64,000 bases of DNA from positions 4,320,501-4,384,500 of the forward strand of contig OX637795.1 in NCBI GenBank assembly GCA_951802425.1, given 5' to 3'. Every line of letters starts with the position of its first letter. Positions within the stretch are counted from its first letter, which is position 1. Positions 9,141 through 49,508 of the stretch are shown piece after piece. The DNA is from Clavaria fumosa. Taxonomy: Eukaryota > Basidiomycota > Agaricomycetes > Agaricales > Clavariaceae. The position numbers and the translations under genes are program-made. The notes beneath the pieces are model-generated. The model was not told the DNA's origin. It worked only from the letters and a program-made list of their open reading frames with translations, and made no database searches.

Positions 9141-11265
9141 GAGCGATTCTATGCATTATATACGCTAACTACCGTAGGTCAATAATGCATGATTTTTGCT
9201 AACTACCATACACTGCCACTACTGTGTGCAATGCATCCCTCTGCCGTCCTTGTCATGCATCCCTCATTGCGCTCATCATGCATCCCTCATCACTCATCAT
9301 GCATCTCTCACTGTCCTTGTCATGCATCCCCTCGCCATCCTCATCATGCATCCTCTTGCTGCCCTTGTCATGCATCCTCTTGCTGCCCTTGTCATGCATC
9401 CTCTCGCCACCCCTACTGCCCTCATCATGCATCCTTCATCGTACGTTGCCTCATCATGCATCCTTTATTGTGCATTCTCTCATCATGCATCCCCTTGCCG
9501 TCCTTGTTGTGCATCCCCCTACCATCCTTGTCATGCATCCCTCATTGGTCATCATGCATCCCCTCGCCGTCCTCGTCATGCATCCCCTCACTGTCCTCAT
9601 CATGCATCCCCTCGTCGTCCTCGTCATGCATCCGCTCGTCGTCCTTGTCATGCATCCCTCACCATCCTCGTCATGCATCCCTCACCGTCCTCGTCATGCA
9701 TCCCCTCACTGCCCTTGTCATGCATCCTCTCGCCATCCCTACTGCCCTCGTCATGCATCCTTCATCGTATGTTCCCTCATCATGCATCCTTCATTGTGCA
9801 TTCTCTCATCATGCATCCTCTTGCCGTCCTCATCATGCATCCCTTCGCCACCCTTGTCATGCATTCCCTCGCCGCCCTCATCATACATCCCGTTGCCGCC
9901 CTCGCCACTGCCATTGCCCTCGCTGCCCTCGCCGCCGCCGCTGCCCTCGCCGCCACCGTTGCCCTCGCTGCCCTCGCCACCGCCATTGCCCTCGCTGCCC
10001 TCGCCACCGCCATTGCCCTCGCTGCCCTTGCCACCGCCATTGCCCTCGCTGCCCTCACCACCGCTGCTGCCCTCGCTGCTCTCGCCACCGCCATTGCCCT
10101 CGCCGCCCTCGCCGCCACCATTGCCCTCGCTGCTCTCACCGCTGCCGCTGTCCCCGCTGCCATCGCCGCTGTCGTTGCCCTCGCTGCCCTCATCATGTAT
10201 CCCTCGTTGCTCATCATGCATCCCTCATTGCTCATCATGCATCCCTCATTGCTCATCATGCATCCCTCATTGCTCATCATGCATCCCTCGTCATGCATCC
10301 CTCATCATACGTTCCCTCATCATGCATCCTTCGTTGTGCATTCTCTCATCATTCATCCCCTCGCCATTGTCATCATGCATCCCTTTGCCGTGTGTTCCTT
10401 GTCATGCATCCCCTCGCCACCCCTCGCTGCCCTCGTCATGCATCTCCTCACTGCCCTCATCATACATCCCATTGCCACCATTGCTGCCGCCGTTGCCTTC
10501 TCTGCCCTCGCCGCCCTCACCGCCGCCATTGCCCTCACCACCCTCGCCACCGCCGTTGCCCTCGCCGCCCTCGCTGCCGCCATTGCCCTCTCTGCCCTCG
10601 CCACCCTTGTCGCCGCCGTTGCCCTCTCTGCCCTCCCCACCCTCGTCGCCGCCGTTGCCCTTGCCGCCCTCTCTGCCCTCGCCGCCGCCGTTGCCCTCCC
10701 TGCCCTCGCCGCCACCATTGCCCTCGCCACCCTCGTCATACATCTCTTCACCGCCCTCGTCATACATCCCCTCGCCACCCTCGTCATGCATCCCTCGCTG
10801 CCCTCGCCGCCACCATTGCCCTCTCTGCCCTCGCCACCCTCGTCGCCGCCGTTGCCCTCGCCACCACTGTTGCCCTTGCCACTCATCATGCATCCCTCGT
10901 CACTTGTCATGCATCCCTCGTTGCTCGTCACGCATCCCCCTGCCACCCCCGTTGCCCTTGTCATGCATCCCTCGTCGTACGTCCCCTCGTCATGCATCCT
11001 TCATTGTGCATTCTCTCATTATGCATCCCTCACTATCCTCATCATGCATCCCCTCGTCACCGCTGCTGCCCTCATCATGCGTCCCCTTGCAGCCCTGTCA
11101 TGCATCCCCTCGCCACCCTTATCATGCATCCCCTCACTGCCCTTGTCATGCATCCCCTTGCCACTGCTGCTGCCCCCATCATGTGTCCTCTTGCCACCTT
11201 TATTCATTCCTTACCCTTACGTTGCAATGCATCACCTGTAGCCTGACTTTGCCTATCATGCATTG
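9141..11265 (+). repeat. Left inverted terminus of KDZ element, ATGCAT minisatellite
   Basis: The outer ~100 bp (with two CTAACTACC-containing motifs) is followed by a ~2-kb tandem array. Its dominant unit is TCATGCATCCCTC with short CGCCGTCC or CACTGCCC spacers, and two sub-blocks (about 9895-10195 and 10450-10870) are made mostly of GCCCTCGCCGCC triplets. The palindrome ATGCAT recurs dozens of times. The array is the inverted counterpart of 31560-33324. Its open frames are stop-free repeats, not genes. Confidence 0.85.
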
Positions 11266-11333
11266 CCATGTATCATTTGTCTTTTATATGCTTATCTAAA
11301 TTGAACGAAATATACTGAGAACTACTAGCCAGA

Positions 11334-13288
11334 TCATGTCTCGCGCACATGCTTGGGAGACCTTAAGTTCACTCCATCTACTTCACCTGGTCCACCATGG
11401 CCACCATGGCTACCACGGCCTCGAAGGCATCCTCCTCTAGACCCAACACCGGTGCCATTGTTGCGCACACCTCTTTTCTGTCCGCTGTTGGGTATTTTGT
11501 TCTCCTTCCCATTTGCCATTGTCATTGTCGCTGAGGCCTTTAGTGTAGGTATGATAGTACGTATAGAGCGGCGAACAGAGTCTCCAGCAACAGCTGGGGA
11601 AGGTGTTAGATTTGGCATCAACACACCGTGTTGCGGTTCAGCAGTTATGGCTGCCCCGGATAGAGAAGACATTGTGCCGCTGGCAGCGGGCAGGAAATTG
11701 AAAGGCGCTTTAGGGATAGTGGAGGAGACAGTCAGAGATGTGGTACTGGAAAAATCATAGGCCGGTGCTATTGCAAATGAAAGGCCAGTTGGAGTATGGT
11801 AAGACACATTACCAGCGAGCACAAGATTGCCTTGAGCCTCGCCGGTCAGCGCTATATCACGGCGGGTTGGCATGCCAATCTGGGGGGCAGGGCTCGGGAA
11901 GATATACGAAGCAGATGATGCATCCCCACAGGACGGAACTGGTGCATCAAAGTCGATAGGAGTGTTATCTCCGCTGAGCGCACGAGAAAAATGTGGGAAA
12001 TGGCTTGGGAATGCATCACCAAACTGCGAAAACGAGACGTCGGGGTCCATATCGTTATCCAGATACGTGGGTTCCATGGCAGCGATACCTGGTAGGGCAG
12101 GTAACCAAGGTAGAGATAGAAGATCCGCGCTGATGCTATGCATTGGCAAAGGCTCGAGCGATAGCTCGGATGAGATTATCGGTTGTGAAACTAGATTCAT
12201 TGGGGTTGCTTGAGATGATTCGGCAGGGGCACTGCCCGAAGGTAAAGATGAGGCTGCCTGATGCGAATCTGGCCTGGCTGCTGGATTTTGAGCCATTACA
12301 CAACTCGAAGGCGGTGTATTGTCTTGAGATCAAGTCTCAATATCGGCAAAGAATTCAAATATCCATGAATGCTCACTATAGACCGTCTTCAGATAATTGC
12401 CAAATGGCACAATGATATCACTCCCGAAGGTCGGCAAAAACATCTGAAAGGCTTGATGTTCTAGGCCACTATCTGTGAAAAATCTGGAATAAAATTAATC
12501 GTTGAATATATGGTAAAGACTCTTTGATCAAAATACACACGACGCAAGGGCGATCTCTCCTCCAACGTCAGGTTTTGGTCCACCCACGACCATAAATCCA
12601 GTCCAGTTGGTCGTTTTCTTGAGATGTTCGAAGAAATTGTTCACAAGGGAGTCCAAATCATCGATCGCGGCTTGATATTTTTCGGGTGAAGGCAAGGCTG
12701 AGTCGTCCAGATCAGGTTTGCGCTCGTTCTCTAGTTCACCCTTTTTGGCCTTGACATGCGCTTTTACCTCCTCAGATTCGTTGGCCCACTCCCGCTTTGT
12801 CACCTCAAGAATTTTGGCCAACTTCTCCGAATGGGTGAGTGACACTCCTACGCTCTCTGCCTCCACAAGGCCCTTCAGCTTACTCTGATAGAAAAGCTTT
12901 GAATAGGCCTCAGTGTCGTGTAAGTGTCGTTTTTTGGATGTTGAGCCTGCAAGAAAAAATCCCCCCTTCTTGCGCACAGTGTTATTGCCTCTCCACCGGA
13001 ACCAGGTACGCAGCATCTACTAGGTCATTCTCTCGTTGGCATTGCATAATGGAACAACTCACTTTCCGTCGCTCTTCTAGTCTGGACCTTAAAAGCACCT
13101 CCTGCTCTTCTGTCAGCTCATCCTGGGGACACTATGGCTTTCTCCGGAAAAGTTTGGAACCATTCACGATATATGAGCGGCCAAAACACGCTAGACAATG
13201 AACCGTTTGCCTGCGTCTCGCGATATTGTGGCACATAGTCGAGTAGAAATTTCACTTGTTCATCCGTTGTCCACGGCTTGCCAGGCAT
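11334..13288 (-). CDS. Conserved Agaricomycete protein of unknown function, four exons
   Basis: Model: exon 13288-13063 (starts MPGKPWTTDEQVKFLLDY), intron 46 nt, exon 13016-12541 (LRTWFRWRGNN...RHLHDTEAYSKLFYQSK...FMVVGGPKP), intron 57 nt, exon 12483-12377 (FFTDSGLEHQAFQMFL), intron 54 nt, exon 12322-11334 (Ser/Pro-rich tail with an RG-rich C-terminus). All introns are GT-AG. The first two exons match a widespread uncharacterised mushroom family that I recall by its WT-EQ, LK-WF-R and VGGP patterns; I know no function. One base is out of frame in exon 1, near the CCCC at about 13118, so this copy may be inactive. The location inside the KDZ element suggests cargo. Confidence 0.6.
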
Positions 13289-13910
13289 TATCAACACTGC
13301 CTGGCAACCAGGTAAGCAATAGAATATGACTTTCTGTGCGCAGCGCTCACCACAGCTGACGTTCGATAGTGTCACAGAGCGAGGGATTAATGCAACACCC
13401 AATATATTCTACCCGGTAACAGGCGCGAATTTGTGGTACTGTATGTGATGTCGTTCGATTCTGATCGCTCTCCCAAAATTTCTATGGCTTCTAATTCACC
13501 TTTTGACCCTGTTTTCGACCCCTTGCTACGTCTGCCTGTCTATAATGCATCATTGGCCGCTCTCCGATGGATCATTCAGGCACACAGCTCGCCTCCACAA
13601 TGCATCACTGACATGGTTTTGTGGTTTTGGGGCGTGCTAAGCCATTCTAGGCCTTCTAAATGCGGGTTTCTCTCACAGGTTTTCCCTTTCGGACCATTTT
13701 TTCAACGCCGTGGCCCCACAATGTATCGGCCTCAATTGTCCTGTAGTCTAACGGACCATTAACCCTGTCCGTAATACGTATGGTAGTTAGGGTGAGTGGG
13801 TTCACACACAAAATTGAGGTATGTGATGGATTACGATTGCGTGCTGGGTCATTTTCAATCCGCTTTGTGAATTTCAGGACTCATACCCCGTCCCCTTCGT
13901 CGTAACCACC

Positions 13911-15101: not shown

Positions 15102-16285
15102 ATGTCCAGCCACCAAAATAAACGTGTCAAATTCCATCGCCCTGCAGTCCCCAACCGTATTCGCCATACATCATACACTACAGCGTCTGGGAAGACCTCT
15201 GTTCGCAACACATTTGTTGAGCTCAATGACGCCCCACAGTCTTGTCGCAACCCAGACAATGACACTGGCAATCCCTCCCCAGTCAATGACGATACACTCT
15301 TCGACGATCTTGATGGCATTGGCCATTCAAGCACTGGCCGACACAAACAATCAGTCAGGATCTCTATACTTTATCTCTTTACTGCAACTAACCAAAATCT
15401 AGGACGAAATCCTTGTCTCAGTGGTGTGGATGAGTGAGCGGGACAAATACTTGGCAGAATTGATCATGTTAGAAGGGCGTCACTCTGCTGCTACCAATCT
15501 GTGTGGTCAATGTAGGACTCAAGATGCAGAATACCGCTGCTTAGATTGCTTTGGTGAAATCCTGTTCTGCGCATCTTGCCTCGTCTCAAACCATAAATAC
15601 TGTCCATTCCACATTGTTACTGTGAGTTGGGTTTTCAGATCCTATTAAGTTATCATCTGATGATGCATTGATGCTAGAAATGGAATGGCAGCTTCTTCGA
15701 GCGGATCACTCTCAAAGACATCGGGCTTCGAATTCAACTTGGCCACGAAGTGGGCACCTGTTGCTTCAACCCTCAACCCGCTATCGGAGATGTATTCACA
15801 ATTATTCATTCTAATGGCATACATGTGGTTTCTCTTGATTTCTGTGCATGCGAGACAGCGCCTGCCATCGTTGCACAGCTGCTTCGAAGCCGACTTTTCC
15901 CTGCGACTTCTAAATCCCCAAGAGTGGCAGCAACCTTTTGCGTCTTGCGGCAATTCCAAATTCTCTCGTTTCAGTCCAAAATTTCTGCATTTGATTTCTA
16001 CTATGCACTGGCTCGGATAACTGACAACATCGTCTCACTACCTTCGGTGAGTCTTCTTCATATCGTTATGTACGCGTCTCATGTCTTTTAGGACCAATAC
16101 AGGTCTTTTCTCCAGATGATCCGACAGTGGCGTCATCTCAACATCAGGAAAAAGAACCCCCAGCAGTAGCTATCAGCATAGACTATGTAGACTACACAGA
16201 CTGTATAGACTGCTGTAGCATATGTAGTGAGAAAAATAGTAATACATAGAAGGTATGGATTACTATATAGCATGCAATAGACTGG

Positions 16286-16665
16286 GTAGCATATTATGAG
16301 TGCATTGTAGTCACGGTAGTAGAGCCTATGTACTATGTTGAGCCTAGTAGCATATTATGAGTGCATTGTAGTCATGGTAGTAGAGCCTATGTACTATGTT
16401 GAACCTAGTAGCATATTATGAGTGCATTGTAGTCACGGTAGTAGAGCCTATGTGCTATGTTGAGCCTAGTAGCATATTATGAGTGCATTGTAGTTACAGT
16501 AGTAGAGCCTATGTACTATGTTGAGCCTAGTAGCATATTATGAGTGCATTGTAGTCACAGTAGTAGAGCCTATGTACTATGTTGAGCCTAGTAGCATATT
16601 ATGAGTGCATAGTAGTAATAGTAGTAGAGCCTATGTACTATGTTGAGCCTAGTAGCAACTAGTGA
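16286..16665 (+). repeat. 61-bp tandem repeat, about six copies
   Basis: The unit begins GTAGCATATTATGAGTGCAT and ends near TATGTTGAGCCTA. Copies start at 16286, 16347, 16408 and onward with a 61-bp period and a few substitutions. It is a subterminal repeat of the 12.9-kb element. Confidence 0.85.
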
Positions 16666-17491
16666 TAGTGCTGTTGGGTAGGATAGTAAGCCTTTGTACT
16701 ACATTGAATTGACAGCACAGATGTTGTCATGATTATGATATAATCAGGAGCTGAGTGGAGGTGAGGTGAATTCCAGTGCAAGGTTGAAGCAATAAACTCA
16801 TGAGTGTTTCAGCATGCTATAGATTAGGATTAAAATGAACAATTCATGATATTGTGCAGTATATGACAAGTACATAGAGTAGTCTCTTTTTGTTGCTTAC
16901 ATAAGCCATCCCAAAGAGGAGTTGTGGAGAAACTGGGGAGGGTTGTTGGAAGGTCACATGACCTGTGGCTGGGGTCAGATTACATAATTGTAAGATCACA
17001 TGACCTGGAGCCTGGGCATGTCATGTGATCCAAGGGTCTGAGCATGGGAACACAGTATCTTTTCCTCTTTTGTACTCTTTCCCCCTTATGTTAGTATTGT
17101 CGTTGTGACCTTACATTTAAGTTGTGTGAGACCCAGTCTGATACTTTTGGACTAAAATTGTTACAAAGATTTGTACTCCATAAATGAATGCATATCAGTA
17201 TACTTGTTGAGATAAAATTGAGCTGCTGAATCAAGAGCATTATTTCTGGTCCATGAGATAGGTACATCTGCTGATCCAAAGTGAGGAATCAACAGACAAC
17301 TGTGCCAAATCCTATCAATGCTGACTACTTCAGCATTTGCAGAATTTTGTTAAGTAGACAAAATAATCTGATACATGCCAGTTGCTAGATCAAAGCTTGT
17401 AAGTGGTCTGTACCAGTGAACATATGCTAAAGGATGTGGTACTATGCCCAGGCCATCAGCAAAACAGCTTGGCTAAATGTAAGTATGGACT

Positions 17492-17551
17492 GGTATGGAC
17501 TGGTGTGTAACACCCCAAGTTGTCTTGGGGTGTTACATACCAGTCCATACC
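17492..17551. repeat. Near-perfect 28-bp hairpin
   Basis: Arms 17492-17519 and 17524-17551 are reverse complements with one mismatch, separated by a 4-nt loop. The core is AACACCCCAAG / CTTGGGGTGTT. Confidence 0.85.
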
Positions 17552-17555
17552 TCTC

Positions 17556-17821
17556 TACTGTACCATTTCATTCAATTGACCAGGTGGTGTGATGCATTCC
17601 TCTGGTCAAATTTTGAATTGACTGAAAGTAGAAGTCAAGTGTCACATGAGGGATAATTGACTGCCCCTCCACCAGTATATATTAGGTAACTGTCACCCAA
17701 AAAGGGAATTTCACCTTACAAATTGACCAATTCCTCAAATGATGTGTGACCAGTGTGATTTTTGGCCAATTTGGGGAGGTGCATGATGCATGACAGGTCA
17801 ATTGAATGAAATGGTACAGTA
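17556..17821. mobile_element. Small inverted-repeat element (MITE-like), 266 bp
   Basis: Terminal inverted repeats of 26 bp: TACTGTACCATTTCATTCAA... at 17556-17581 and its reverse complement at 17796-17821. No coding potential inside. The superfamily is unknown and the target duplication unclear. Confidence 0.6.
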
Positions 17822-18211
17822 TACTGACAACTCAGCTGAGCTGTTTTGCTGATGAGATGCTTTGGAAGATCAAAAATCTTGCTACATGAAGACCTAGTTG
17901 AAGTTGACATCAAATTGTAGACAATTGATAGCCTTAGACTAACCTTTTAATCCATCCTCTTTCCACTGTGATTTGTTTTCAATGATCAAGGTAGTGTCAA
18001 AGCATGGTGGAGTTGCTGGCTTGCATGGTCCATTAGAATGGCCAGGCATTCCATGAATCTGATATAATTGTTCATCAGCTTGGGGCTTGGATGGCAACTT
18101 GACAGTAATATATTTATACACATCAAATCAATCATGATAGTTTGGATGAATATGATCTCTTCCAAAAGATTGCTCCAAAAAGGTGTTCAAAGCTTGGATA
18201 AAGCTAGGTAC

Positions 18212-18395
18212 CCATTTATTTTGGTAAATTAGTACAGAAAATATCAATTATTTTTTTTGACATATCCACATTAATCTACAGATCAAGTAGTGTCTTATGA
18301 AAAAAAAAAATCTTGAGAATTGCTTGAGAATTGACTGAGAAATGGGCCAGAACATTTGTGGGTCACTGATTTGGTAAGCTTGCTGTACTTGTGGC
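18212..18395 (-). repeat. Dispersed repeat copy without the MITE (related empty site)
   Basis: The reverse complement of this stretch matches 57660-57780 plus 58354-58425, for example CTCAGTCAATTCTCAAGCAA and GATATTTTCTGTACTAAT. Here the sequence is uninterrupted at GATCTGTAGATTAATGTGG, the place where the other copy carries the MITE. Confidence 0.75.
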
Positions 18396-18479
18396 ATGGT
18401 GGGAATTGCCGTCCCAGAAAGTCGTCACATGCTCTGTGTTGAACTTGTCGTTCTCTCTGCCTCCCACCATCACCCTCTC

Positions 18480-19485
18480 TCCTCCCTTTCTCCCATCCCC
18501 AGCAACGACGACAGCGGCGACGGCACCCTCACCTTCTCTCCTCCCTTTCTCCCATCCACAGCAACGACGACAGCGGCGACGGCACCCTCACCCTCACCTC
18601 CAGCGATGACGACGGCGGCGGCGGTACCCTCACCCTCTCTCTCTCTTCCAGCGATGACGGCGGCAGCGGCAGCACCTCCTCCCTCTCCCTCTCCCTCTCC
18701 TTCAGTGACAACCACGGCAGCGGCGGCACCCTCAGCGAGGGGCCACCAGGTGCGCCCTCTCCCTTTTTTCCATGATTCTTTTCATTTTTTTAATCTACAG
18801 GGCGATGGTGAGGGCGGCGGCACTTCTCCGTCTCCTCTCTCTCACTCTCCTCCCTCTCACTCTCCTCCCTCTCCTCCCTCCCTCTCTCCTCCCCCTCCCT
18901 CTCTCCAGCAACTACGACGACGGCAGCGGCAGCAGCAACGCAACAGCGGCGGCGGCAGCGGCAACAGAGCAACAGCGGCGGCAGCAACGGTGATGGCGAC
19001 AGCGGTGGCAGCGACAGCAGCGGCAGCGACGGTGACGGCGACAGCGGCGGCAGCGATGGTGACGGCGACAGCGGCGGCAGCGACGGTGACAGCGACAGCG
19101 GCGGCAGCGACGGTGACAGCGACAGCGGCGGCAGCGACGGTGACGGCGACAGCGGCGGCAGCGATGGTGACGGCAACAGCGACGGTGACGGCAACAGCGG
19201 CGGCAGCGACGGTGACGGCGACAGCGGCGGCAGCGATGGTGACGGCAACAGCGACGGTGACGGCAACAGCGGCGGCAGCGACGGTGACGGCAACAGCGGC
19301 GGCAGCGACGGTGATGGCAACAGCGGCGGCAGCGACGGCGACAGCGACAGCGGCGGCAGCGACGGCGACAGCGACAGCGGCGGCAGCGACGGTGACGGCG
19401 GCGGCAACAGCGGCAGCAACGACAGCAACGGCGGCGACAGCAGCGGCAGCAATGGCGACGGCGGCGGCAATGACAGCAACGGCGC
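18480..19485. repeat. CTCC-rich tract and GC-triplet array
   Basis: 18480-18900 has repeats of CTCTCCTCCCTTTCTCCCATCC and CAGCAACGACGACAGCGGCG type. 18910-19485 is a regular array of AGCGGCGGCAGCGACGGTGA-like 18-24-bp units. It produces long stop-free frames on both strands with homopolymeric Ala/Ser/Pro/Arg composition, not genes. Confidence 0.85.
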
Positions 19486-19599
19486 CCACTATGGACCCAA
19501 TAGCAGGTTATTATCACCATCCAGTCAGATGATTTGTGACTTTCACCCAAAAATCAGTGCAAAACAGGTGATGGGTGATTTCTAATCACCATTAAAATC

Positions 19600-20217
19600 A
19601 AGGGATATTCACTAGATAAGATTGAGTTATATAATACACCCCTCAATATGGTTGATATTAAACTAGGGGATATTGGGTTGTACAAATCACTCTTTACAAC
19701 AAGGGATTTTCAACATGATAAGATTGAGTTATATAGTACACCCCTCAATATGGGTGATATTAAACTAGAGGATATTGGGTTGTACAAATCACTCCTTACA
19801 ACAAGGGATATTCAACATGATGAGATTGAGTTATATAGTACACCCCCCAATATGGGTGATATTAAACTAGAGGATATTGGGTTGTACAAATCACTCTTTA
19901 CAACAAGGGATATTCAACATGATGAGATTGAGTTATATAGTACACCCCCCAATATGGGTGATATTAAACTAGAGGATATTGGGTTGCCTGCAGGTGAAAT
20001 TGGTGAGTGGGCCATATGTAGGACATTTAGGCCAAACAAGGGCACAACTACTATACATGGAGAGGGCAGGAGGGTAGCAACACAAAATACAGATGCAAGG
20101 CTGGTGGAGGGACAACAAATGAGAGCAAGGAGGGATGACATATGCAAGGGAGGGCAAGAGAGGAGGCAGAGGAGCAGGGAAAAAGAGGTCTTAAGTGAAA
20201 AGCAAGCACTAGGGTGA
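19600..20217 (+). repeat. 102-bp in-frame tandem repeat (34-residue units)
   Basis: About 3.5 copies of a 102-bp unit lie at 19600-19990. The unit length is a multiple of three, and one frame stays open from 19648 to 20217, with units reading NMGDIKLEDIGLYKSLFTTR then DIQHDEIELYSTPP. The tail (to 20217) is basic and glutamate-rich. No homologue is recognised. The conserved frame may be chance for a young repeat, or a small repeat protein. Confidence 0.55.
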
Positions 20218-20801
20218 AAAAGGAAAGAAGCAGAGGATGAGATGCAGGGCATCTAGAGGTGCGGAGCATGAGACGCACGGGGCATGGTGTGCAAGGGCGA
20301 AAGATGCATGGGGCATGGTGTGCAAGGGCGAAAGACGCAGAGTGTGGGAGGCACGGATGCCGAGGGGGTATGCTCGGGTCACTGATTAGACTATAGTAAA
20401 TGCCCTCTTGTCTATGCCCATATTGAGATTGGTACTGTCATCTGAGTTTGTGAATGACTGACCCGGTTCCAGGAGGGAGGCATCGACCTCAAAAAAATCT
20501 TCCTTGTCCCCATTGTCTAAGCCTCTCTAGTCCCAATCCTATGTTCTCCTTCTCCCTCTGGCCAGGTGACACGATGGCTCATCCTGCTCGTTCCACCTTA
20601 TTGTGCAGCCAGAAACGCAGTGATAATCCTGCCTGTCCAGTCACATGAGTTGGAGATGATGAATGAGAATCCGGTCTTCCCCGGCTCAGAGATAGATGCA
20701 AAGGAGTGCCACTGGAGTAGAGGGCTTGTGCTAAGATGGAAGTAGCTCCCTGCTTTCCACTTGTCATGCCAATGCATAATTTCTTCGGCACCTACTAACA
20801 T

Positions 20802-21225
20802 TTTGGAGCAGTCAACCGTACGCGACCTTGTGCATCAAGTCCGTCTTGACCTGCAGCTCGCATATCGTTGCCAACCCACCAAGGACCTGGGAGACTTATT
20901 CAAGATGGTAAGCAAGGGATATCGTAGACAATTGTGACTTAAGTTGTCCACGTAGGCACGTCACCTTCAACCCCATCTTTCATATTTTCAGAATGACTGG
21001 GCTACAGCCGAACTGGTCAAACAATATCTCAGTAATCACAGGAAAAGCAACTCACGTAAGAGACGACTACTGCCCGGAGCACCGGAACAGGCGAAGAGGC
21101 GCCGTCGGACTGATAAAGCGACCTCAGGTGACGAAGATAGCAACGATGCTGACGAAGAGCAGGAATATGATGTCCAGAATGCGGCGGGTGGTGAGGGCAG
21201 TGAGGGAGAAAGCGTGGATTGTTGA
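20802..21225 (+). pseudogene. C-terminal gene fragment with basic/acidic tail, two exons
   Basis: Reads TNILEQSTVRDLVHQVRLDL...GDLFKM to 20907, then an 84-nt GT-AG intron, then from 20992 NDWATAELVKQYLSNHRKSN, a lysine/arginine-rich nuclear-localisation-like stretch and an acidic tail ending ESVDC with stop at 21223-21225. The upstream part of the gene is missing. The family is unknown. Confidence 0.4.
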
Positions 21226-22074
21226 CCAGATGGACATTTAGATTGGATAGGCTGATAAAATGGACATCGAGCGCGACAAACTTGAGGCATGGTGAAGTCG
21301 TGTAATTGAGTGTCATACATAGACGTCGAGCGCGACAAACTTGAGGCATGGTGAAGTCGTGTATTTGAGTGCCATAGTGTGCTAGTTGAACCCGATGACT
21401 TGCGACGCTTTCTGCACATCGTCGGGCTAAGCCTTCGGGTGCTCATCATTGCCTGTCCCCAACATCCCCAACATCCCCAACATCCCCAACATCCCCAACA
21501 TCAGTGCCGTACGCAGATGACAACAATTTTGGTTTAGGATACTGACGACGCCGCTATTTTGATGCTTTTGCGCAATGCGCCTCATTATTGTTACATTTTC
21601 TATGCTATCTATTAACTGGCTGGTATAAAGTACGCCGACAACGGTCAGCGGTTGAGGATTGCGCGATGATGTGGTTGGAAGCGAGAAGAAAAAAACATTA
21701 CCAAACAACCCCCCCTGCTTACTTACGCCCCACGCTTCGGTAACTGCCGAGTGCAGTCTGCACACATATGGAAACGCCATGTTCGCGTCGACGGTCTGGG
21801 TCACACCACCACTCTTCACGCGCGAGGTGCTCGAGATGACACAGGTCAGTGAGCGCCTTCCGAGTCGTGCTTGCGCTGCACTTCACCTACAGCAAGGCAT
21901 AGTAGCAGCAGCAGCTGGCAGCAACGGTTCGTCCCCATCCCTTCTCCCCTCGACCTATCATTTTTCAGTCCAATTCGTGGCAACGACAGCGGGAGCAACA
22001 GCAGCGTGCGGCGATAACAACGACAGAATGACAATACCTGCTACACGGGCCGGCGACGGCTGCAGCAGCTGACA

Positions 22075-22560
22075 ATCACCAGCAGCCGACGAGGACGACG
22101 CACCAGCGACTAACGACGACGACGACGCACCTGCAGCCCACGGAGACGACAACCGACGACGGCAGCAGTGGCCGACGATGAGACGCACCAGCAGCCAATG
22201 ACGACCGACGACGGCAGCAGTGGCCGACGGTGAGACTGGCAGCAGCGGCCGACGACGATGACGACGCACCAGCAGCTAACGACGACGACGGCGCACCAGC
22301 AGCCAACGACGACGACTGACGACGGCAGCAGCGGCCAACGATGACGACGCACCAGCAGCTAACGATGACGACGGCCCACCAGCAGCGGCCGACGATGACG
22401 ACGCACCAGCAGCTAACGACGACGACGGCGCATCAGCAGCCAACGACGACGATCGACGACGGCAGCAGCGGCTGACGGTGACGACGCACCAGCAGCCAAC
22501 GACGACGATCGACGACGGCAGCAGCGGCCGACGATGACGATCGACGACAGCTGCTGCTGC
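22075..22560. repeat. Degenerate GAC/CAGCAG triplet array
   Basis: Repeats of GACGACGACGCACCAGCAGC and CGACGACGGCAGCAGCGGCC fill this stretch and the reading frames over it are low complexity. Confidence 0.7.
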
Positions 22561-23259
22561 AGGGGCCAGCGGCTTCAGCAGCCAGCGACGGCAATAACAA
22601 CAATGGTGGCTGCGGCAGAGGCAACAGCATGCGGCAACAATGGCGCAAGCCCCCGACAGTGGTCGCTGACCAACGGCGGGGACTTGGGCCATTGGTGGCA
22701 GCTGGGCAAGTGGCAGCTGGGCAGGGAGTGGCAGTGGCGGCAGCAGGGCGGGGAACGGAGGTGGCAGTAGGGCGAGGAGTGAGAATGGCAGCAGCGCAGC
22801 AAGGGCAGGCGGGAGCAGCCATGAACAAGCTTGTCGTTGTTGCCAATGATGAGGAGAACGGCGCGAAGTTCATGTCTGTTATCAGTTCAGCTGCAATTTT
22901 TTAGATGACCAAAAGTTGTCCATTGCTTTCAGTCTTGGAGCCAGAGGTACTGGAGGCGCCTGAGGCAGAGACAGTTGACATACATGAACCGCTGAAATGA
23001 ACGAAGCAAAAACAAGGATTGATGATACTATTGTAAACCAGGAGAGGCCGCCGACCAAAACGACTCAAGACATTGCTGCTCTCTGAATCCTCCATCCGCA
23101 CCCCATATTTTCCTCGCGCTCTCGCAACAAAAGACAAAGTCAGTAATCTCTCCACCCTCCTGGAACCTGACCTGCTTGTCCCTTGTTCCCGCCTACGCCA
23201 AACAACTGCGCGCACGAATCGTACACCACCTTGTTCACCTTGAAAGAGTCGCCGAGAGA

Positions 23260-23460
23260 GATGGTGGATCGTCGATGATGGCATGCCGCCGAGCCCGAGG
23301 AGTGCGCCGTCTGGATGCACAGCTAAGGATGTGAACGGCTTGTCGGATGCGACTGAGCGGAAGATCAGCTTGTTGGCAAATAATTCGTGGAGGGAGTACG
23401 TCTTATCGAGAGAACTGAGGGCAAGAAGGGTTGATGTGGGATGGCTAGACCCATGATCTG
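23260..23460 (-). pseudogene. Fragment resembling PRP19 WD40 C-terminal region
   Basis: In one minus frame the sequence reads HPTSTLLALSSLDKTYSLHE, a short variable part, then KPFTSLAVHPDGALLGLGG and PSSTI. This resembles the last WD40 blades of the splicing factor and ubiquitin ligase Prp19, where LAxHPDGxLLGLG is typical. Similarity ends at about 23260, and the rest of the frame down to 22901 is not WD40. Probably a captured or decayed host fragment. Confidence 0.4.
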
Positions 23461-24712
23461 TGGATACGAATATTTAAAAGTATATACTCTGGAGTAAAAA
23501 ATTGTTTTGAATGAAAAATGGACTCACGGGAGAGGACCACCGTTATCATAGCCACTGCCACCCATAATCATACTCATCATTACCGCAGCCACCTGCAGGC
23601 GCAGTGCACCAATGCCCTTCCCAGATGCCAAGCGGTCACAGCGGTGGGCAGTGACAATGTCCATGAAGGATTGTATAATGAAGCAGACATGTATGAAAAA
23701 GAACCGAATCAAAATATATATTCTTGACAAGATATTGACAAATGATTGAGCTCGTTGTTGGGGACGATGAGCACGAAGGTTCAGGACGGTGGGCGGGCGC
23801 ATGATGGCAGTGACAGGCGTGGGAACACGGGGTTAACACGGGGTTAACACGGGTGAGCCCTCTCGATACTTGGAAGGCCAGACCGAATATTAGGAATAAA
23901 CTGGAATCTGAATGCGTGGGTACGCGAACATGGCGTTTCCATATATGTACTGCACTCGGCAGTTACCGAAGCGTGGGGCGTAAGCAAGCAGGGGGGGTTG
24001 TTTGGTAATGTTTTTTTCTTCTTGCTTCCAACCACATCATCGCACAGTCCTCAACCGCTGACCGTCGTCGTACTTTATACAATAGATAGCACAGAAAATG
24101 TAACAATAATGAGGCGCATTGCGCAAAAGCATCAAAATAGCGGTGTCGTCAGTATCCTAAACCAAAATTGTCGTCATCTGCGTACGGCACTGATGTTGGG
24201 GATGTTGAGAATGTTGGGAACGTTGGGGACAGGCGATGATGAGCGCCCGAAGGCTTAGCCCGACGATGTGCGGAAAAGCGTCGCAAGTCATCATCGGCGT
24301 AGGTGACTTGCGGACGACACTGATGTTGGGGACAGGCGATGAAGCTTCGATGAAGGTTTGTCTTACATCCCTTTTCGACTGCTGACATCTCAAACTGGCG
24401 CATAAATTACTAGCATTCGCCACTGCACCGCCGTTACGCCTCTAGTCTTGAAAGTCTCGAACAGGCGCATAAATTATTGTGCCGTTTCGGCCGCTTCAAT
24501 CATACAATACACGCATATCCGCTGTACAAACACTAGCGGCAGGGACATGGGCAATGATTGTGGTGAGCACTGGCAGTATTTGAGTTTCGGGCAGGCATTA
24601 CATACACGGCAGTGCTCACTTACACTTCGTACCAGCGCTCGCAGTTAGTGGTTGGCGAATGGCCCTCTCCATGACTCCACATTGTGTTCCCTGTATTGCG
24701 AAGAATGTAGCC

Positions 24713-25175
24713 TCATGAACGTTCAGAGGATACTGGATTCACGTACGCCTCTTCTACGGGGAGGCACATCTCTCCGGTAAGCATCCCATGTCGAGCTATT
24801 TGCTGCAGTGTGCGCCCCTGCTGATGAGCCTGACGTATGTCATGTTTTATGTCAACCATCAGCTTCCGATAGTGGTAGGCCATACGAAGTGCATGACGGT
24901 ATCGTAGCTCGGCAGAACGTGCAGTGATGTGAAGAGACTGGTATCGCTTATACGCATCGTTTACTTCCCTCTGTGCGTATATTCCCATGACCTCGTGAAA
25001 TACTAAGCATGCTTAGAGTGTTTGCTTTACACAGTTTGCTCACAACACTTCGGAGGCGTCGATATGCGCCGGCTGACTCGCGTGTGTTGTTAATCAATGG
25101 GGCAGTAACCAGTGGGGGAAGCTCGTCATTGAATGTCGTGTGGGGGAGCTGGGCCGTTGGCGTCAAGGAGGGCAT
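24713..25175 (-). pseudogene. Hypothetical gene fragment, helical, one frame change
   Basis: The frame starts MPSLTPTAQLPHTTFNDELP at 25175 and runs to about 24970. It continues in a second frame (REVNDAYKRYQSLHITARSA...EEAYVNPVSSERS) to 24713. The second part is rich in charged residues and probably helical. No family recognised. Confidence 0.35.
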
Positions 25176-25185
25176 CTCCTGGTGA

Positions 25186-26100
25186 GTGTTGGGGTTGTCT
25201 GTTGTGTTCCGAAGAAGAAATGGAACTGATCTGTTCCTAGCTGATATTCTAGCCTACGCTTTCTCGCTTTCTCGCTTTGTTGTTTCACTTTCTTGCCTCG
25301 CCGCTATTTTGTTGCTTTATTGCTTCCCTTTCTCGCTTTGCTTTGATGCTTCATTTCCGTCGCTTTGTCATCTCACTTTCTCGCTTTGTTGCTTTGTTTC
25401 TTCACTCCTTATGTCACCTCGTTGCGCGGCCGCACGTGGCACCTCGTTGCGCGAACGCACGTGGCTTTATTTATGTACCGCGTCCAAGACATTGGCAGTT
25501 AGCAGTTTGTCTGTATCGGGTTGAGTGGTTTTCTCGTGGCGGGTGGATATTGTAGCAGTTGGCCGACGGAATTGACATTCTCCGCCCGCCCTCCTTCCTC
25601 CTCATGACCTTGCTGAACATGGCTCTTCGTGGGCGGACTCTGATATTGTACGCCATCGGTTACTCGCTATGACAAAACACTCACCAGATCCTATTGCCCG
25701 CCCCAGCACCCAATTTTTACCATGCTGTGTCAATGTCCTTACATTTCCTTCGTAATTTTGAAGCACTGAGAGTCGACAATGACTCTCACAGATCAAGCTC
25801 AAGGTGCGCAAGAAGAAAGAAGACCATGAGCGGGATGCGAACAGGGAGGATTTGCTCAAATTTCTCAATTCGACCTTCGGGTGAGCTCTGTCAGCTGTAC
25901 GTACGTCGAGGCACGTCCCTGGTGCCGTATTTTATCGACCGAAATCCTCTTCATTTTTGGAGCCCATCTTGGCGTACTCCTGGGAGCAGTGGAGCGATCA
26001 TAATATTGTACTTTGTCCGGCTCAGTGCTCAGCCGCCAGCTCGTCGTCGGCCCCGTTGCCGCCCCAGTTCGTTTACCTTTTTACTATAGAGAAACCTCCT
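25186..26100. other. TTTCTCGC-rich intergenic DNA
   Basis: 25255-25420 repeats CTTTCTCGCTTTG-like motifs. No reading frame with protein character was found. Confidence 0.4.
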
Positions 26101-26114
26101 TTCCCTACTCATTT

Positions 26115-27125
26115 ATGTCGTCCTCACTAGCACCATACAACGTCACCCTTTCTGACCAGACTCCAACTATCCAATACTCACCCACTCGCGATGGCCCACT
26201 CTCCCAAGGCTGGAATATCTCCTACTCGGGCCCCATCATCCCGAAACAAATCGATCCGACCGCTGCAGGCTCCAGCTCACACCGCACGACGATGCCCGGT
26301 GCCCGCTTGCTGCTCAATTTCACGGGCACAGCCGTGTACCTCCTTGGCACAGCCCAAGCCCCTGGCGCATACGACGCCACGGTTGACAGCCACAAGCGCG
26401 CGCCTGGCAGCGGTGGGGGTCTGTTGGCGAGCATCACTGGTCTTCCGTACGGAGATCACCAAGTTGGGCTAACCGTCGTGAAGCCGGTGGAGGTCGCCGT
26501 ACGGGGGGCTATCGTCACAATCGGACTGGACCTGCCAGGGTTCGTTTCCCGAGGTTGCTCTATGTCTTTGCTCATGCAGAGCTTGCCACCAGGATTTCTC
26601 CTGTGCAACGCATGGTGAACGCTGTCCTCATGGACGGAACAATTAGGCCCAACCCGTTCTTCCAATATAACAATCCGCCAGGAAATCCTGGCAGCTTGGC
26701 CCGCCAATGTACAGTAAGTCTCTGTCCTCTGCGTGCCTGCATACTCTAGAAATCCGAACGATGTGTTTCTTCACTAACAGTCCACAATGGGATGACACCA
26801 CTGGTGCTCAGGCCCGAGATGACCACCGCAGGCGGCAAGCGTTCGCAGGGCTCGTCTCTCTTATTTACCCTCACGCAGACGTCCGCGTTCTTCCTACGTG
26901 GTGCGGCTTCTCGACCCGCACTCGACATGGGTCGACGCGGATGAAGTACTCTTCTGGCGGAGCGGCCTAGACTGCGACACGACATATCTGGTCGAAGTCA
27001 AGTCCGAGGTGGCTGGCGCAAACATGTTTTTCGGTGTCAGATCGGTGGATATACTTGATGCTGGCAGGTGTGTTTCGTCCGACTTCTTGTTCATCTGGGG
27101 TTTGCCGCTCACGGTCATTTAGCAA
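26115..27125 (+). pseudogene. Decayed fungal Gal-binding-like (Ser/Thr-rich secreted or membrane) protein gene
   Basis: From ATG 26115 the protein reads MSSSLAPYNVTLSDQTPTIQ, then GARLLLNFTGTAVYLLGTAQ, SGGGLLASITGLPYGDHQVG and VTIGLDL. This pattern (FTGTAVYLYG, LPYG-H) belongs to mushroom proteins with an N-terminal jelly-roll domain before a transmembrane segment. Later pieces (MVNAVLMDGTIRPNPFFQYN and, near 27000, CDTTYLVEVKSEVAGANMFF) look like the second such domain. Frames change between pieces and no membrane segment follows, so it is a relic. Confidence 0.5.
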
Positions 27126-27299
27126 CGGTGGCCCAGCCGCGCGTCTACAGGTGCGTGTTCTCAGATGCGTTGGGCAATGTGTTCACATCCATACCAAAAG
27201 TAGCATCGTAGCTCTCGTGCATGTTGACCGTACTCCCCGCTCGAACCGAGCCCCCGCAAATGCTCACCCAACAGACTCTCCCCTCTGAGTTCACCTTAT

Positions 27300-27924
27300 C
27301 TCTTCCTTTTGCCGTGTAGCATCATTCAGGCAAATGCCCTGGATTGACCTCCCTTAGGTTTATTGCTCAGATTACCTGTATTCAACGTAAATGACCCAAA
27401 TTTCATTTCACAAATTACCTACCTGTACTCAGTGCAATTGACCCAAATTTCATTTCACAAATTACCTACCTGTATCCAGTGCAATTGACCCCTGCTTTAT
27501 GGTTAATATACTCTGTCTAAAATGGGGAAAATAGCCCGACAGAGCCCCAGTTTCATGGCTAATAATCACCTGTTTTCCAGCTTTTGACTGGTACAAAGAT
27601 AGTGAAAAGCACCTCAGATTATGGTTGAGATGACCCAAAAACTATTGTGAAATTAACCCATTAGATCAGCTTAAAATGCACTTATGATATAGTGAAATTC
27701 ACCATTAGAAATCAGCTTAAAAGACACCTGTACTGTAGGAATAATCACCCAGAGAACAGCGGGTGAATTCGGTCATATAAGTGGCGAAAATCACCCGTTT
27801 CATGTACCCAATAAAGATGTGATTATCAACAAGTCCTGGTGATTTTCACCTAGGAAACCATTGCTATTCACCACTTCTCAGGGTGTTTCATATGGTGATT
27901 TTCACCAGGTTTTGGTCTTGCAGT
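27300..27924. other. AT-rich spacer with GGTGATTTTCACC palindromes
   Basis: Contains two copies of ACCCAAATTTCATTTCACAA (about 27390-27475) and several GGTGATTTTCACC-like palindromes toward the GC-triplet array. Similar GGTGATTTCTAATCACC sequence lies at ~19.57 kb on the other side. No gene. Confidence 0.5.
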
Positions 27925-28555
27925 GGGCGGCGGCAACGACAGCGACAGCGACGGCAACGGCGGCGGCAACGGCAACGGCGGTGGCGACAGCAACGGCGGC
28001 GGCAACGACAGCAGCGGCAGCGACGGCGACGGCGGCAGCAACGACAGCGACGGCAGCGGCAACGACAGCGGCGGCAGCGACAGCGGCGGCAGTGACAGCA
28101 ACGGCGAGGGCGACGGCAACGACAGCAACGGCGGCGACAGCAGCGGCAGCAACGACAGTGACGGCGGCGGCAATGACAGCGACGGCGGCGGCGGCGATGG
28201 CGGCGACAGCGGCGGCAACGACAGCGACGGCGGCGGCGGCGATGGCGGCGACAGCGGCGGCAACGACAGCGACGGTGGCGGCGGCGATGGCGGCAACGGC
28301 GGCAGCAATGGCGGCAATGGCGGCGACAGCGGTGGCAATGACGGCGGCAACAACAGTGACGGCAGCGGCAACAACAGTGACGGCGGTGGCAACAACAGCG
28401 ACGGCGGCGGCAACAACAGCGACGGCAGTGGCGGCGATGGCGGCGACGGCGGTGGCAACGACGGCGGCAACGACAGCGATGGCGGCGGCGGCGATGGCGG
28501 TGGCAACGACAGCGACGGCGGCGACGGCGGCGGCGGCAGCAGCAGCAGCAATGGC
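27925..28555. repeat. GC-triplet array (GGCAACGACAGCGACGGC type)
   Basis: A 630-bp array of GGC, GAC, AGC and AAC triplets, open in many frames on both strands, with the same character as 18910-19485. It sits near the right end of the 12.9-kb element. Confidence 0.85.
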
Positions 28556-28799
28556 CCAGGCCCCCTACTGCAGTCCCAGACTGACAGCAGGGACCTGGGC
28601 CATTGATTTTGTGGTGGCTGGTGTGCAGAGGAAGGAAGGAGCAGTGGTGGCAGCAGGAAGCGGCACATAGCACTACCATAGTCTACTCATAGTCTACTGT
28701 AGTATCAACCCGGGCTACCATTTGAGACAAGTGAACTACCATGTACCATTGAATCACATTTATGTCCTTTGTATACTCTGGTGCATTGTATGGGATCTA

Positions 28800-28925
28800 C
28801 TCAGTGCTACAGAGCAATATATAAGAACTACCATTACTACAGAGCAATATATGGGAACTACTGTTACTACAGAGCAATATATGGGAACTACCATTACTAC
28901 AGAGCAATATATGGGATCTACTGGG
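28800..28925 (+). repeat. ~30-bp tandem repeat, four copies
   Basis: The unit CTACAGAGCAATATATGGGA plus ACTACCATTA or a close variant. It is a subterminal repeat of the 12.9-kb element and, like the left end, is rich in CTAC. Confidence 0.8.
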
Positions 28926-31559
28926 TCTATATAACTCGTTACTAGCTACTGAGCTACTGCTGCTACCATGACTACATAGTACTATATTGTTTGAACTTTT
29001 TTTCCTGATGAAGATGCTCAAACGTGCGGGCCGTGGTCACGATCACTCCGGTGTTGCTGCCACTGCCGAAGGTGAATGTGCGGTGCTTTGTCCCGCATGT
29101 CCACAACCTGGGAAAAACTTACCAGATGGGTGGAAAGACGCTCCTGAGCGCCAACGCTGGCTGTATTCACTATTTGTTGGCATTGATGCCAACTTTAAGT
29201 TGAAGTGGAAGAATGTTTCAAGCGAGAATGCTGACCCATCATTAAGTGGGGGGTGGTCTTATTTCGTAGAGGAACCAAAGTACAAAGCCTTCCTGGATGC
29301 ACATGGAACACAGCGACAGGAGAGAAGCACATGCTCGAACTATGATGCGCTCGCGAGGGCAGACTCTAAGGACACACGGTTCCTTGACAGTACTGGAGTA
29401 GGAACTGTCAACTGCATTCGCCATGACATGAAACGCCCAGGCGGAGTGGGTGCCCTTCAGAAAGGAGAAAGGTAAATGATTTGCACCATTCATTTCATAA
29501 ATACCTCAATGCTATGTTCTAGATATATCAATATGGATTATATCTTCTTCAACAGCATACGCAGGAACAATGATGAGTTCAAGAATATTGTCATCTCGTA
29601 TGATATTGCGTGTCAGTGGAGTCGTCACTTTTGGGATCGCATGCTTCAGTTCCCTCGCGAGTGTCATATCAACTGCAGTTCTGTCAAGATCAACTTTCTG
29701 GTCCCCAAATTCCATCTTCCAGCTCATCGCCCAGCCTGTCATGTTGCTTACTCCTTCAATTTTACGCCCTGTGTTGGCCGGACTGATGGCGAAGCGCCGG
29801 AGCGTGGATGGTCAAACAGCAATGCTCTCAGCTCGAGCACGAAGGAGATGGGGCCGGGTTCTCGCCGGGATACGCTTGACGATCATTTTGGTGACCTGAA
29901 CTGGAGGAAGGTCTGCGGGTTAGGTTTGATAATCCTTTTTTTCATTCACTGCTAAGTTAATATCCGACTCAGGAGCCTCACTGTTGCGTAAACTTAGAGG
30001 AGCAGTACCAGAGCGAAATGAGCACCTCAATGCGTTTCGGGAATTGACTGATTCTCTACATCATTCCGCAGAAAAATGGTCAGAGAGCATCAAGGCATGG
30101 GAGAGGGACAACACAAATCTAAATCCGTATCAATCCAAAAGTTCAAGTACGTGTTCCTGCTTGAAAGGAAAGGCCGATCTTGATTGTCTCCCTCATGCAG
30201 CCATTGGATTGGCTGCCGTGAAGCTTACTTTACTTCAACGGGAAGCACAAGAGATCCAACAAGGCACTGCATCAGTGCTCGATGATATGGTCTCTCACAG
30301 TGTTTTGATTTCTATGGGACTTGAGTTGGAAGAGCAACAGTAAGTGATTTGAACAAGCTCCTCTGTTCTCGGCACTCAAAAAGCACTTCATTTCCTCTAG
30401 GTGCAGATTACAAGGTGATCTGTCGTCGCTGGGTCCATATGCTACTGTTATCCAGCTCGCAAAAATCCAAGAACGTCGAAATGCACTTCAACGCAAGATT
30501 GACAGCTGGAGTGCCATCCAGAAAATCTACGTGCCCTGTTTGGTAGCGCTGCAAAGGGATTCTGACATTTGCAGTCAAAGTCAACCACATAATACTCCAC
30601 TATGGTGGCCTTCAGCCATTTCTGGCAGAGTGCAATGCGATTCTCGTCTTTACTCGCATGAATGGGAACTGCGCCACGCGCAAGCAAATGATGCCCTCAG
30701 TGACTTGCGACGGAACCTACAGCTCCGCTCGCATCTCTTCAAATATAAAGACCGTTTTACTACTGGACAACAGGCCAATACACGAGCCAATGCGACCATC
30801 TCCCGGGTCCAGCAGTATATAAATGCATGTGTTGCCCGATACCGGGTTGCACGCAATGCCTTACCGTCGCTTTCTACCCAGCTGAATAAGGGGGATTTGT
30901 GGAAGGCCTTGCTGTTGGAACTGCGTGACGAAGACGTTCGTAACATTACTCTTGGACTGGATGGTGAATCGGAGGGCAAGAGATCCCTCTCGTGGATCTG
31001 GAGATGCGGTGGCGACGAGATGACTGAAGACGATAATCTCCATGAGTGTATGTCATTGTCTTGGGCTCGCTTTTGTTGTCTAACAAAATTTGAAGCTCTA
31101 CGAATTGAATGGTGCAAAGCACGCGCCAGGGCACTGCGCTGGACAGAAGAAGTTCTACTTCTTGTGGAGGAGATGCGACGGGTCCTAGAGTTTTTCCAGT
31201 GGAGGGCACAATTTTGGAAAACACATGCTGAGTTTTTGCAACTTGATACTGATGCAGATCAGACAGTCCGGCTCCTCGGGAGCCATCTGTTGCTCCCTCG
31301 CAGAATTGAGGGTGTGCGATCATACGGGCTCCGTCAGGCACATATCCAAAACGTTTTACATGACAACTTCAGGAATCTCTGGCGCAGCATTCCCACCCTT
31401 ATCATATCGCAACTTGGCAGAGATGCCAACATGGTTACACAACTGGATTCCAGTATGATGGATGAACTCTTACAGGCCGTGTCCTTTATACAGAAATGAT
31501 AGCTTGTATTTGTAGAATCGTGTACTTAACAGAATAATGAGTGCTTGATTAGGAATACA

Positions 31560-33324
31560 GTCATTATCTCCTGCAGGATGAGAGAACACATGGGGGGTCA
31601 TGGGCAGTGAGGGGATGCATGATGAGGGCAGCAAGGGCGGTGAAGGGACACATGATGAGGGCAGCAGCGGTGGTGAGGGGATGCATGATGAGGACAGTGA
31701 GGGATGCATAATGAGAGAATGCACAACAAAGGATGCATGACGAGGGGACGTACGACGAGGGATGCATGACGAGGGCAATGGGGGTGGCAGGGGGATGCAT
31801 GACGAGCAACGAGGGATGCATGATGAGTGGCAAGGGCAACAGTGGCAGCGAGGGCAACGGCGGCGACGAGGGTGGCGAGGGCAGAGAGGGCAATGGCAGC
31901 GGCGAGGGCAGCGAGGGCAGCAGCGGCGGCGAGGGCGGCGAGGGCAGCAGCGGCGGCGAGGCCGGCGAGGGCAATGGTAGTGGCGAGGCCGGCGATGGGA
32001 TGTATGATGAGGGCGGTGAGGGAATGCATGACGAGGGCAGCGAGGGGTGGCGAGGGGATGCATGACGAGGAACACATGGCAAAGGGATGCATGATGACAA
32101 TGGCGAGGGGATGAATGATGAGAGAATGCACAACGAAGGATGCATGATGAGGGAACGTATGATGAGGGATGCATGACGAGGGATGCATGATGAGCAATGA
32201 GGGATGCATGATGAGCAATGAGGGATGCATGATGAGCAATGAGGGATGCATGATGAGCAACGAGGGATACATGATGAGGGCAGCGAGGGCAACGACAGCG
32301 GCGATGGCAGCGGGGACAGCGGCAGCGGTGAGAGCAGCGAGGGCAATGGTGGCGGCGAGGGCGGCGAGGGCAATGGCGGTGGCGAGAGCAGCGAGGGCAG
32401 CAGCGGTGGTGAGGGCAGCGAGGGCAATGGCGGTGGCAAGGGCAGCGAGGGCAATGGCGGTGGCGAGGGCAGCGAGGGCAATGGCGGTGGCGAGGGCAGC
32501 GAGGGCAATGGCGGTGGCGAGGGCAGCGAGGGCAACGGTGGCGGCGAGGGCAGCGGCGGCGGCGAGGGCAGCGAGGGCAATGGCAGTGGCGAGGGCGGCA
32601 ACGGGATGTATGATGAGGGCGGCGAGGGAATGCATGACAAGGGTGGCGAAGGGATGCATGATGAGGACGGCAAGAGGATGCATGATGAGAGAATGCACAA
32701 TGAAGGATGCATGATGAGGGAACATACGATGAAGGATGCATGACGAGGGCAGTAGGGATGGCGAGAGGATGCATGACAAGGGCAGTGAGGGGATGCATGA
32801 CGAGGACGGTGAGGGATGCATGACGAGGATGGTGAGGGATGCATGACAAGGACGACGAGCGGATGCATGACGAGGATGACGAGGGGATGCATGATGAGGA
32901 CGGTGAGGGGATGCATGACGAGGACGGCGAGGGGATGCATGATGACCAATGAGGGATGCATGACAAGGATGGTAGGGGGATGCATGACAAGGACGGCGAG
33001 GGGATGCATGATGAGGCAACGTACGATGAAGGATGCATGATGAGGGCAGTAGGGGTGGCGAGAGGATGCATGACGAGGGCAGCAAGAGGATGCATGACGA
33101 GGGCAGCAAGAGGATGCATGATGAGGATGGCGAGGGGATGCATGACAAGGACAGTGAGAGATGCATGATGAGTGACGAGGGATGCATGATGAGCGCAATG
33201 AGGGATGCATGACAAGGACGGCGGAGGGATGCATTGCACACGGTAGTGGCAGTGTACGGTAGTTAGCAAAAATCATGCATTATTGACCTACGGTAGTTAG
33301 CGTATATAATGCATAGAATTGCTC
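31560..33324 (-). repeat. Right inverted terminus of KDZ element, ATGCAT minisatellite
   Basis: Reverse-complement counterpart of 9141-11265, with units such as GAGGGATGCATGATGAG. It is ~350 bp shorter than the left arm, and blocks present on one side are missing or rearranged on the other. The outer ~100 bp is nearly identical to the left end. It starts ~60 bp after the transposase stop. Confidence 0.85.
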
Positions 33325-33632: not shown

Positions 33633-33858
33633 GGTTGCATTTATCTAACTGTCCATCCCTTTAAAGACATGCTTTTCCCTTTCTCTGCATGGGTAACTTT
33701 GGACCTGTTATTGTTTGACTTTTCTATACCTCCAATCTAATGAACATCTATCCCTGTTGTCATTTGGATAGGTTGCACGAGCCTGGCTGTGTAACCTATC
33801 ATGTAAATAGGGCCAAATGAAAGTACAGCCAGCTGTATTTGACTGCTTTCCCCACACC
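33633..33858. other. Spacer between WD40 end and foldback element
   Basis: No gene or repeat recognised. Confidence 0.4.
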
Positions 33859-49356: not shown

Positions 49357-49508
49357 CTACACCATTTTGGCTCAAGGTGGAAATATGGTAGGCTCTGCTC
49401 TATGCCATTTGACTCAACTTTTTCGCATGGCAGGCAAACTAAACAAATTATATATCAAAATATCGCTAAAATTCAGCAGATTCTGATTCTGAAAACTATA
49501 TGTCTGTA

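Follow-up and report, generated by a model that had tools for sequence, protein, structure and literature searches.

Structure of the locus

The window, by which we mean the whole 64,000-nucleotide stretch analysed here, corresponds to C2:4320501-4384500 of a 48.8-Mb, 17-contig assembly. Within it, a WD40 gene is interrupted by a KDZ transposon that occupies positions 9131-33334, starts with CACC and finishes with CCTG, and this transposon is itself interrupted, within its transposase gene, by further repeats (Table 1). When the 12,869-bp nested insert is subtracted, the KDZ core in the window measures 11,335 bp.

Table 1. Features of the interrupted WD40 gene and of the nested elements, in window coordinates
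Feature	Position	Strand	Remarks
WD40 gene, 5' part	8028..9130	+	WD40 Pfam; alignable to paralogue C2:3397200-3402900; ends in left TGATGAC
Left 7-bp target-site duplication, TGATGAC	9124..9130	.	Flank comparison, empty site
Left terminal inverted repeat / subterminal array	9131..11085	.	Starts CACCAAATGCGAGC
Second gene of KDZ element	11334..13288	-	Conserved in sibling family A
KDZ transposase gene, 5' part	14937 (approximate start)..16141	+	Cut at 16141
CxC2 cysteine cluster	15711-16031	+	PF18803, E 1.4e-41; left of nested insert
Nested insert 1, PlavakaB-like	16142..29010 (12,869 bp)	.	CATCAGGAAAAA...TTTTTTTCCTGATG ends; AA target duplication
Nested insert 2, inside insert 1	19489..27926 (borders approximate)	.	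Multicopy repeat of about 8.4 kb; CACTATGGACC...GGTCTTGCAGTG ends
KDZ transposase gene, 3' part	29011..31499	+	Holds KDZ catalytic domain
KDZ catalytic domain	about 29164-29472 and 29518-29901	+	PF18758
Right terminal inverted repeat / subterminal array	31645..33334	.	Ends GCTCGCATCGCCTG
Right 7-bp target-site duplication, TGATGAC	33335..33341	.	Flank comparison, empty site
WD40 gene, 3' part	33335..33700	+	Joined-flank and paralogue alignments; +2 bp frameshift at 33553

Other repeats lie nearby. Two 315-nt inverted arms (33923-34237 and 51359-51673) consist of 38-bp tandem repeats, are 97% complementary to each other and lie 17.1 kb apart; they start soon 3' of the second part of the WD40 gene and probably mark another transposon next door. 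Two long hairpins stand back to back at 48787-50078 and 50079-51103, with arms of 570 nt (95% identity, 152-nt spacer) and 458 nt (100%, 109-nt spacer).

Ends, target-site duplication and other copies

The ends were set from eight aligned termini, comprising three left and four right termini of the family and one divergent relative on C4. In this comparison the common sequence runs 10 bp outward of 9141 and 33324, and because CACCAAATGC (left) and GCATCGCCTG (right) are common to other copies of the family, the ends lie at 9131 and 33334. Left ends of the family read CACCAAATGCGAGC and right ends, on the reverse strand, CAGGCGATGCGAGC, with CAGGTG in one copy; correspondingly, one copy has GCATCACCTG in place of GCATCGCCTG at the right end. 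The near-identical inverted termini described in the initial annotation are thus real, but the positions given for them, 9141 and 33324, fall 10 bp inside the true ends. The 2-bp GC proposed there as a candidate duplication recurs in other copies together with the 8 bp outside it and is therefore part of the element, the duplication being the 7-bp TGATGAC.

Paired copies of the termini are present elsewhere in the genome. With the terminal patterns, 20 matches were obtained for the left end and 15 for the right, against one each for the reversed patterns, and pairing on all 35 coordinates yielded five left-right pairs, all with CACC...CCTG termini and all with exact 7-bp duplications. These five copies belong to two families, and the four outside the window (C6:1991070-2010170, C3:553341-566653, C5:2208073-2220213 and C11:817250-828901) also bound KDZ matches.

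The copy on C6 is a second complete member of the window family, located at an unrelated site with its own duplication, GCATGCA. Its identity to the window is 97.4% over 9131-14522, 99.4% over 14517-16141, 99.3% over 29011-30070 and 94.8% over 30068-32653. It carries two insertions of its own, a 2.7-kb one in its transposase gene, bounded by CATCAGGA ends and flanked by duplicated CA, and, further upstream, a 4.8-kb one (C6:1996433-2001253) that starts TGACGAAG and has an AGAGTC repeat on both sides.

The other three pairs form a sibling family, family A, with duplications CAGGGGC (C5), CGGACAG (C11) and CGATGAA (C3). Two of these copies are 12,141 and 11,652 bp long, and that on C3 spans 13,313 bp. 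Family A resembles the window family in its CACCAGATG...CGCCTG ends, its 7-bp duplications and a minus-strand second gene that both families share. Its C5 and C11 copies have TGCATC arrays at the two termini, and the C5 copy has 57-79% translated identity to the window transposase over the larger segments. In contrast to the window family, its inverted repeat is short and its arms agree imperfectly, at 66 of the 84 positions aligned over the first 85 bp, and, unlike that of the window copy, its transposase is unbroken, with WRHLKMLKRAGRG read through the homologous place.

Flanks were inspected for 13 of the 20 left and 10 of the 15 right ends, namely the five pairs, the single ends at C5:2143700, C4:3772793, C2:373787, C6:600752, C2:552436, C4:368082 and C4:370782, and six further single ends. 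Four of these last six, at C9:1269543, C10:437452, C4:750767 and C1:1292226, continue like neither family and look like chance matches. For the family-A left end at C2:552436, a right partner was not found within the 701 bp searched. The two inward-facing right ends of family-A type at C4:368082 and C4:370782, 2.7 kb apart, have no 7-bp duplication and stand outside the count of five; possibly they represent a small composite or rearranged element.

The interrupted WD40 gene and its empty site

The gene flanking the element was followed with a joined-flank query of 105 amino acids drawn from both WD40 flanks. This gave 12 matches in the genome, four of which (C2:3397543, C8:383055, C2:3269244 and C2:3337622) span residues 2-105, the best at 95% and within an open frame of 1,271 amino acids. 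Two close paralogues, at C2:3397.2k and C8:382.7k, align to the flanks without a gap across the join (DNA identity by BLAST 95.5% and 94.6%) and hold a single TGATGAC, which is the empty site, known here from paralogues, not from an allele of the window gene. The proposal that a KDZ transposon splits a WD40 gene, with coding sequence on both sides and uninterrupted paralogues to be found, is borne out by these alignments.

A different origin of the locus, in which the WD40 halves and KDZ ends were joined by rearrangement or by an assembly error, would find some encouragement in the family termini without a partner in the stretches inspected (C5:2143700, C2:373787 and C6:600752), since such termini make recombination between elements possible. 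It is nevertheless highly implausible, as the 7-bp duplication is common to both flanks, two paralogues contain the joined sequence with nothing missing, and the second complete copy has a duplication of its own at an unrelated site.

The two halves, which the initial annotation held to be still readable, can be read as WD40 coding sequence only in part and not in a clean frame. Relative to both close paralogues, the window gene has gained 7 bp at 9006 (CCAGCAC before TCAGCAC) and 2 bp (AA) at 33553; relative to the C2 paralogue it misses 87 and 15 bp, both multiples of three. The gains of 7 and 2 bp equal the duplication lengths of the KDZ and PlavakaB groups and may therefore be candidate excision footprints, but slippage would account for them equally well.

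Nested insertions

The 12,869 bp at 16142-29010 have no counterpart in the C6 copy, which is 99% identical to the window on either side of the break. They split the transposase gene, leaving the CxC2 cluster to the left and the KDZ domain to the right, and they have termini of their own, in short form CATCAGGA...TCCTGATG. The left end of this insert has at least 40 matches in the genome at 97-100%, its own included, and the right end has at least 42 matching pieces. Other copies match the window from 16700 to about 19484 and have the right end within a further few hundred bases; the insert's own body amounts to about 4.4 kb (16142-~19488 and ~27927-29010). The stretch between, from 19.5 to 27.9 kb, matches other places than does insert 1, for example C2:2980105-2988114 at 99-100%. 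By eye, the ends of this inner repeat are CACTA-like, which makes CACTA a candidate class for it; at its approximate borders no clear target duplication was found.

Could the block instead be one KDZ element of about 24 kb with cargo, ending at 9141 and 33324 and flanked by a GC duplication, as initially annotated? Such an element would fit with the inverted termini and with a KDZ domain lying between them, yet the C6 copy lacks exactly 16142-29010, this segment, bounded by ends of its own and flanked by duplicated AA, disrupts the transposase gene, other copies also contain the GC with the 8 bp beyond it, and the empty site retains TGATGAC, not GC. We regard this reading as very improbable; with KDZ, PlavakaB-like and CACTA-like insertions superimposed, the 24-kb block is a nest of three around a broken transposase gene.

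Fifteen ORFs of the insert, six from its own body and nine from the inner repeat, were compared with Pfam, low-complexity ORFs being left out, and none matched the Plavaka transposase (PF18759). Non-autonomous PlavakaB members are to be expected. One inner-repeat ORF (22901-23473, minus strand) is similar to a portion of the WD40 domain of Prp19; at E 4.5e-9 the match falls well short of the curated cut-off for the whole domain, and the ORF is perhaps a captured host-gene fragment. Elsewhere, at C5:3334462-3334782, a KDZ match begins where another PlavakaB-like insert (C5:3334058-3334486) has its right end; here the insert-1 family may have broken an additional KDZ gene.

Coding capacity and terminal arrays

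The KDZ transposase gene that the initial annotation placed between the termini is there. Two ORFs match PF18758, with E values of 3e-19 and 2.7e-41 and scores of 70 and 142 against a cut-off of 26.6 bits, and the two domain segments are separated by a stop and probably an intron. Both features of the KDZ superfamily, the PF18758 catalytic domain and the CxC2 cysteine cluster, are thus present. The unbroken family-A transposase had 1,523 relatives at E <= 1e-30 among 7,233 candidate proteins scored, and is therefore an ordinary KDZ transposase; the 120 relatives listed come from Boletales and other mushrooms.

The second gene, which has a frame change near 13118 in the window copy, gives a weak prediction of an HMG-box-like fold at about 12723-12917. 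Foldseek matches were weak, the best having E 0.42 and none reaching 0.001, and HMG boxes made up 13 of the 33 rows at E <= 10; the other 20 rows and the lower rows of a second comparison were scattered over non-HMG folds, which were set aside. At least two relatives, in Suillus plorans and Paxillus rubicundulus, were found among 7,992 candidates scored within length bounds. Judged from the predicted fold, the product is a possible accessory DNA-bending protein.

The inverted repeats of the window family are about 1.5-2 kb long, the left and right arms agreeing at 92.4% over 1,523 columns and at 88% over a further 294, and they are dense in inward-oriented TGCATC. This motif occurs 43 times in the first 2 kb of the element and its reverse complement, GATGCA, 39 times in the last 2 kb, with no occurrence in the opposite orientation in either stretch. 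In the right-hand arrays of family A, TGCATC is about equally frequent in both orientations. By inference, the oriented arrays of the window family would be binding sites, recognised either by the transposase or by the second, HMG-box-like protein; the weak HMG matches and the mixed orientation in family A speak against these roles.

Carriage of a TET/JBP gene by the window element was ruled out, no match lying inside it. The genome contains at least 185 matches to KDZ and at least 64 to TET/JBP. Of these 64, 56 score above the cut-off, and all lie outside the window element, its C6 sister and the C3, C5 and C11 copies of family A. Among the strongest KDZ matches (the best 46 of 185), two start within 10 kb of the start of an above-cut-off TET match. 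Outside the window family, some KDZ copies have a TET/JBP match at a distance of about 2 kb (for example C1:479215 and C1:481297; C7:1281675 and C7:1283939), and another TET-positive KDZ copy lies around C8:739298.

Discussion

The most economical account, and one we hold with high confidence, is that an 11,335-bp Kyakuja-like KDZ transposon inserted into a WD40 gene at TGATGAC and was later split by a PlavakaB-like insert carrying a CACTA-like repeat of about 8.4 kb. Directly observed are the ends, the target duplications of the outer two elements, the empty site, the nesting and the breakage of the gene. The first step would be a cut-and-paste insertion by the element's transposase, KDZ transposases being of the DDE type. 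Later, the PlavakaB-like element, which carries the further repeat, would have entered the transposase gene at a point that separates the CxC2 cluster from the catalytic domain, the order of events being the one we infer.

Complete fungal KDZ elements are already known (PMC12730594; PMC12810828; PMC8290104), and the initial annotation's view that their full extent is rarely clear is dated: complete Kyakuja structures with 7-bp duplications have been described (Kojima 2025; PMC12730594), and KDZ and Plavaka terminal motifs have been characterised in Marasmius oreades (PMC8290104). The window element shares a KDZ transposase, a 7-bp duplication and CA..TG ends with Kyakuja-1_LB and Kyakuja-2_LB of Laccaria bicolor, which in the account of these two families are TET-positive, with 5'-CA..TG-3' ends and no terminal inverted repeats (PMC12730594). 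It differs from both in that its inverted repeats measure 1.5-2 kb and contain TGCATC arrays, and in having no TET/JBP match. Since the repeats set it apart from the two Laccaria families, only the length of its duplication and its CA..TG termini speak for the Kyakuja label; and since the missing repeats belong to the description of two families and are not a criterion stated in that source, we call the element Kyakuja-like rather than a member.

A KDZ element of Zisupton or Dileera type would account for the long inverted repeats and the missing TET/JBP gene, and KDZ families with inverted repeats of 139-241 bp do exist in Cryptococcus (PMC12810828). However, Zisupton, and likewise the Dileera member Zisupton-1_PGr, are described with 8-bp duplications (PMC12730594), against exactly 7 bp in all five left-right pairs, and we consider this assignment rather unlikely. 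The mobile elements KDZ1, KDZ2 and KDZ3 of Cryptococcus neoformans are like the window element in having inverted repeats and a transposase with a cysteine cluster, and their 9-11 kb compare with its 11,335-bp core. They differ from it in a CxC1 instead of a CxC2 cluster, in the shortness of the repeats (139-241 bp), in duplications of 8 bp (KDZ1) or 4-8 bp, and in that they have been shown to move (PMC12810828). Nested insert 1, for its part, has the CATCA..TGATG termini and, with AA, the 2-bp duplication of PlavakaB, an EnSpm-related group with 2-3 bp duplications (PMC12730594), and the related 2.7-kb insert in the C6 copy likewise has a duplication of this length, CA. Insert 1 is unlike PlavakaB in that the 15 ORFs scanned hold no Plavaka transposase and in that it carries the 8.4-kb repeat.

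How the Kyakuja-like element would bring its ends together can be sketched tentatively. The second, HMG-box-like protein would bend the ends together at the TGCATC arrays, making a two-component KDZ system in which a CxC2-KDZ transposase acts with the element's own bender, bound to the inward arrays at both ends, and in which the additional 7 and 2 bp of the WD40 gene would be KDZ and PlavakaB excision footprints. We think this combination possible but doubtful. If true, the footprints would mean that the WD40 gene has been hit more than once.

In summary, the case as a whole is solid and mostly ordinary. Several copies, together with an empty site, fix where the elements of a KDZ family end, how long their target duplication is and how large the core is, and the locus illustrates that nesting can double the apparent length of a KDZ element. 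To our knowledge, little biochemistry is available for the KDZ superfamily, and the exact ends (CACC...CCTG with 7 bp) and oriented TGCATC arrays offer testable cleavage and binding sites.
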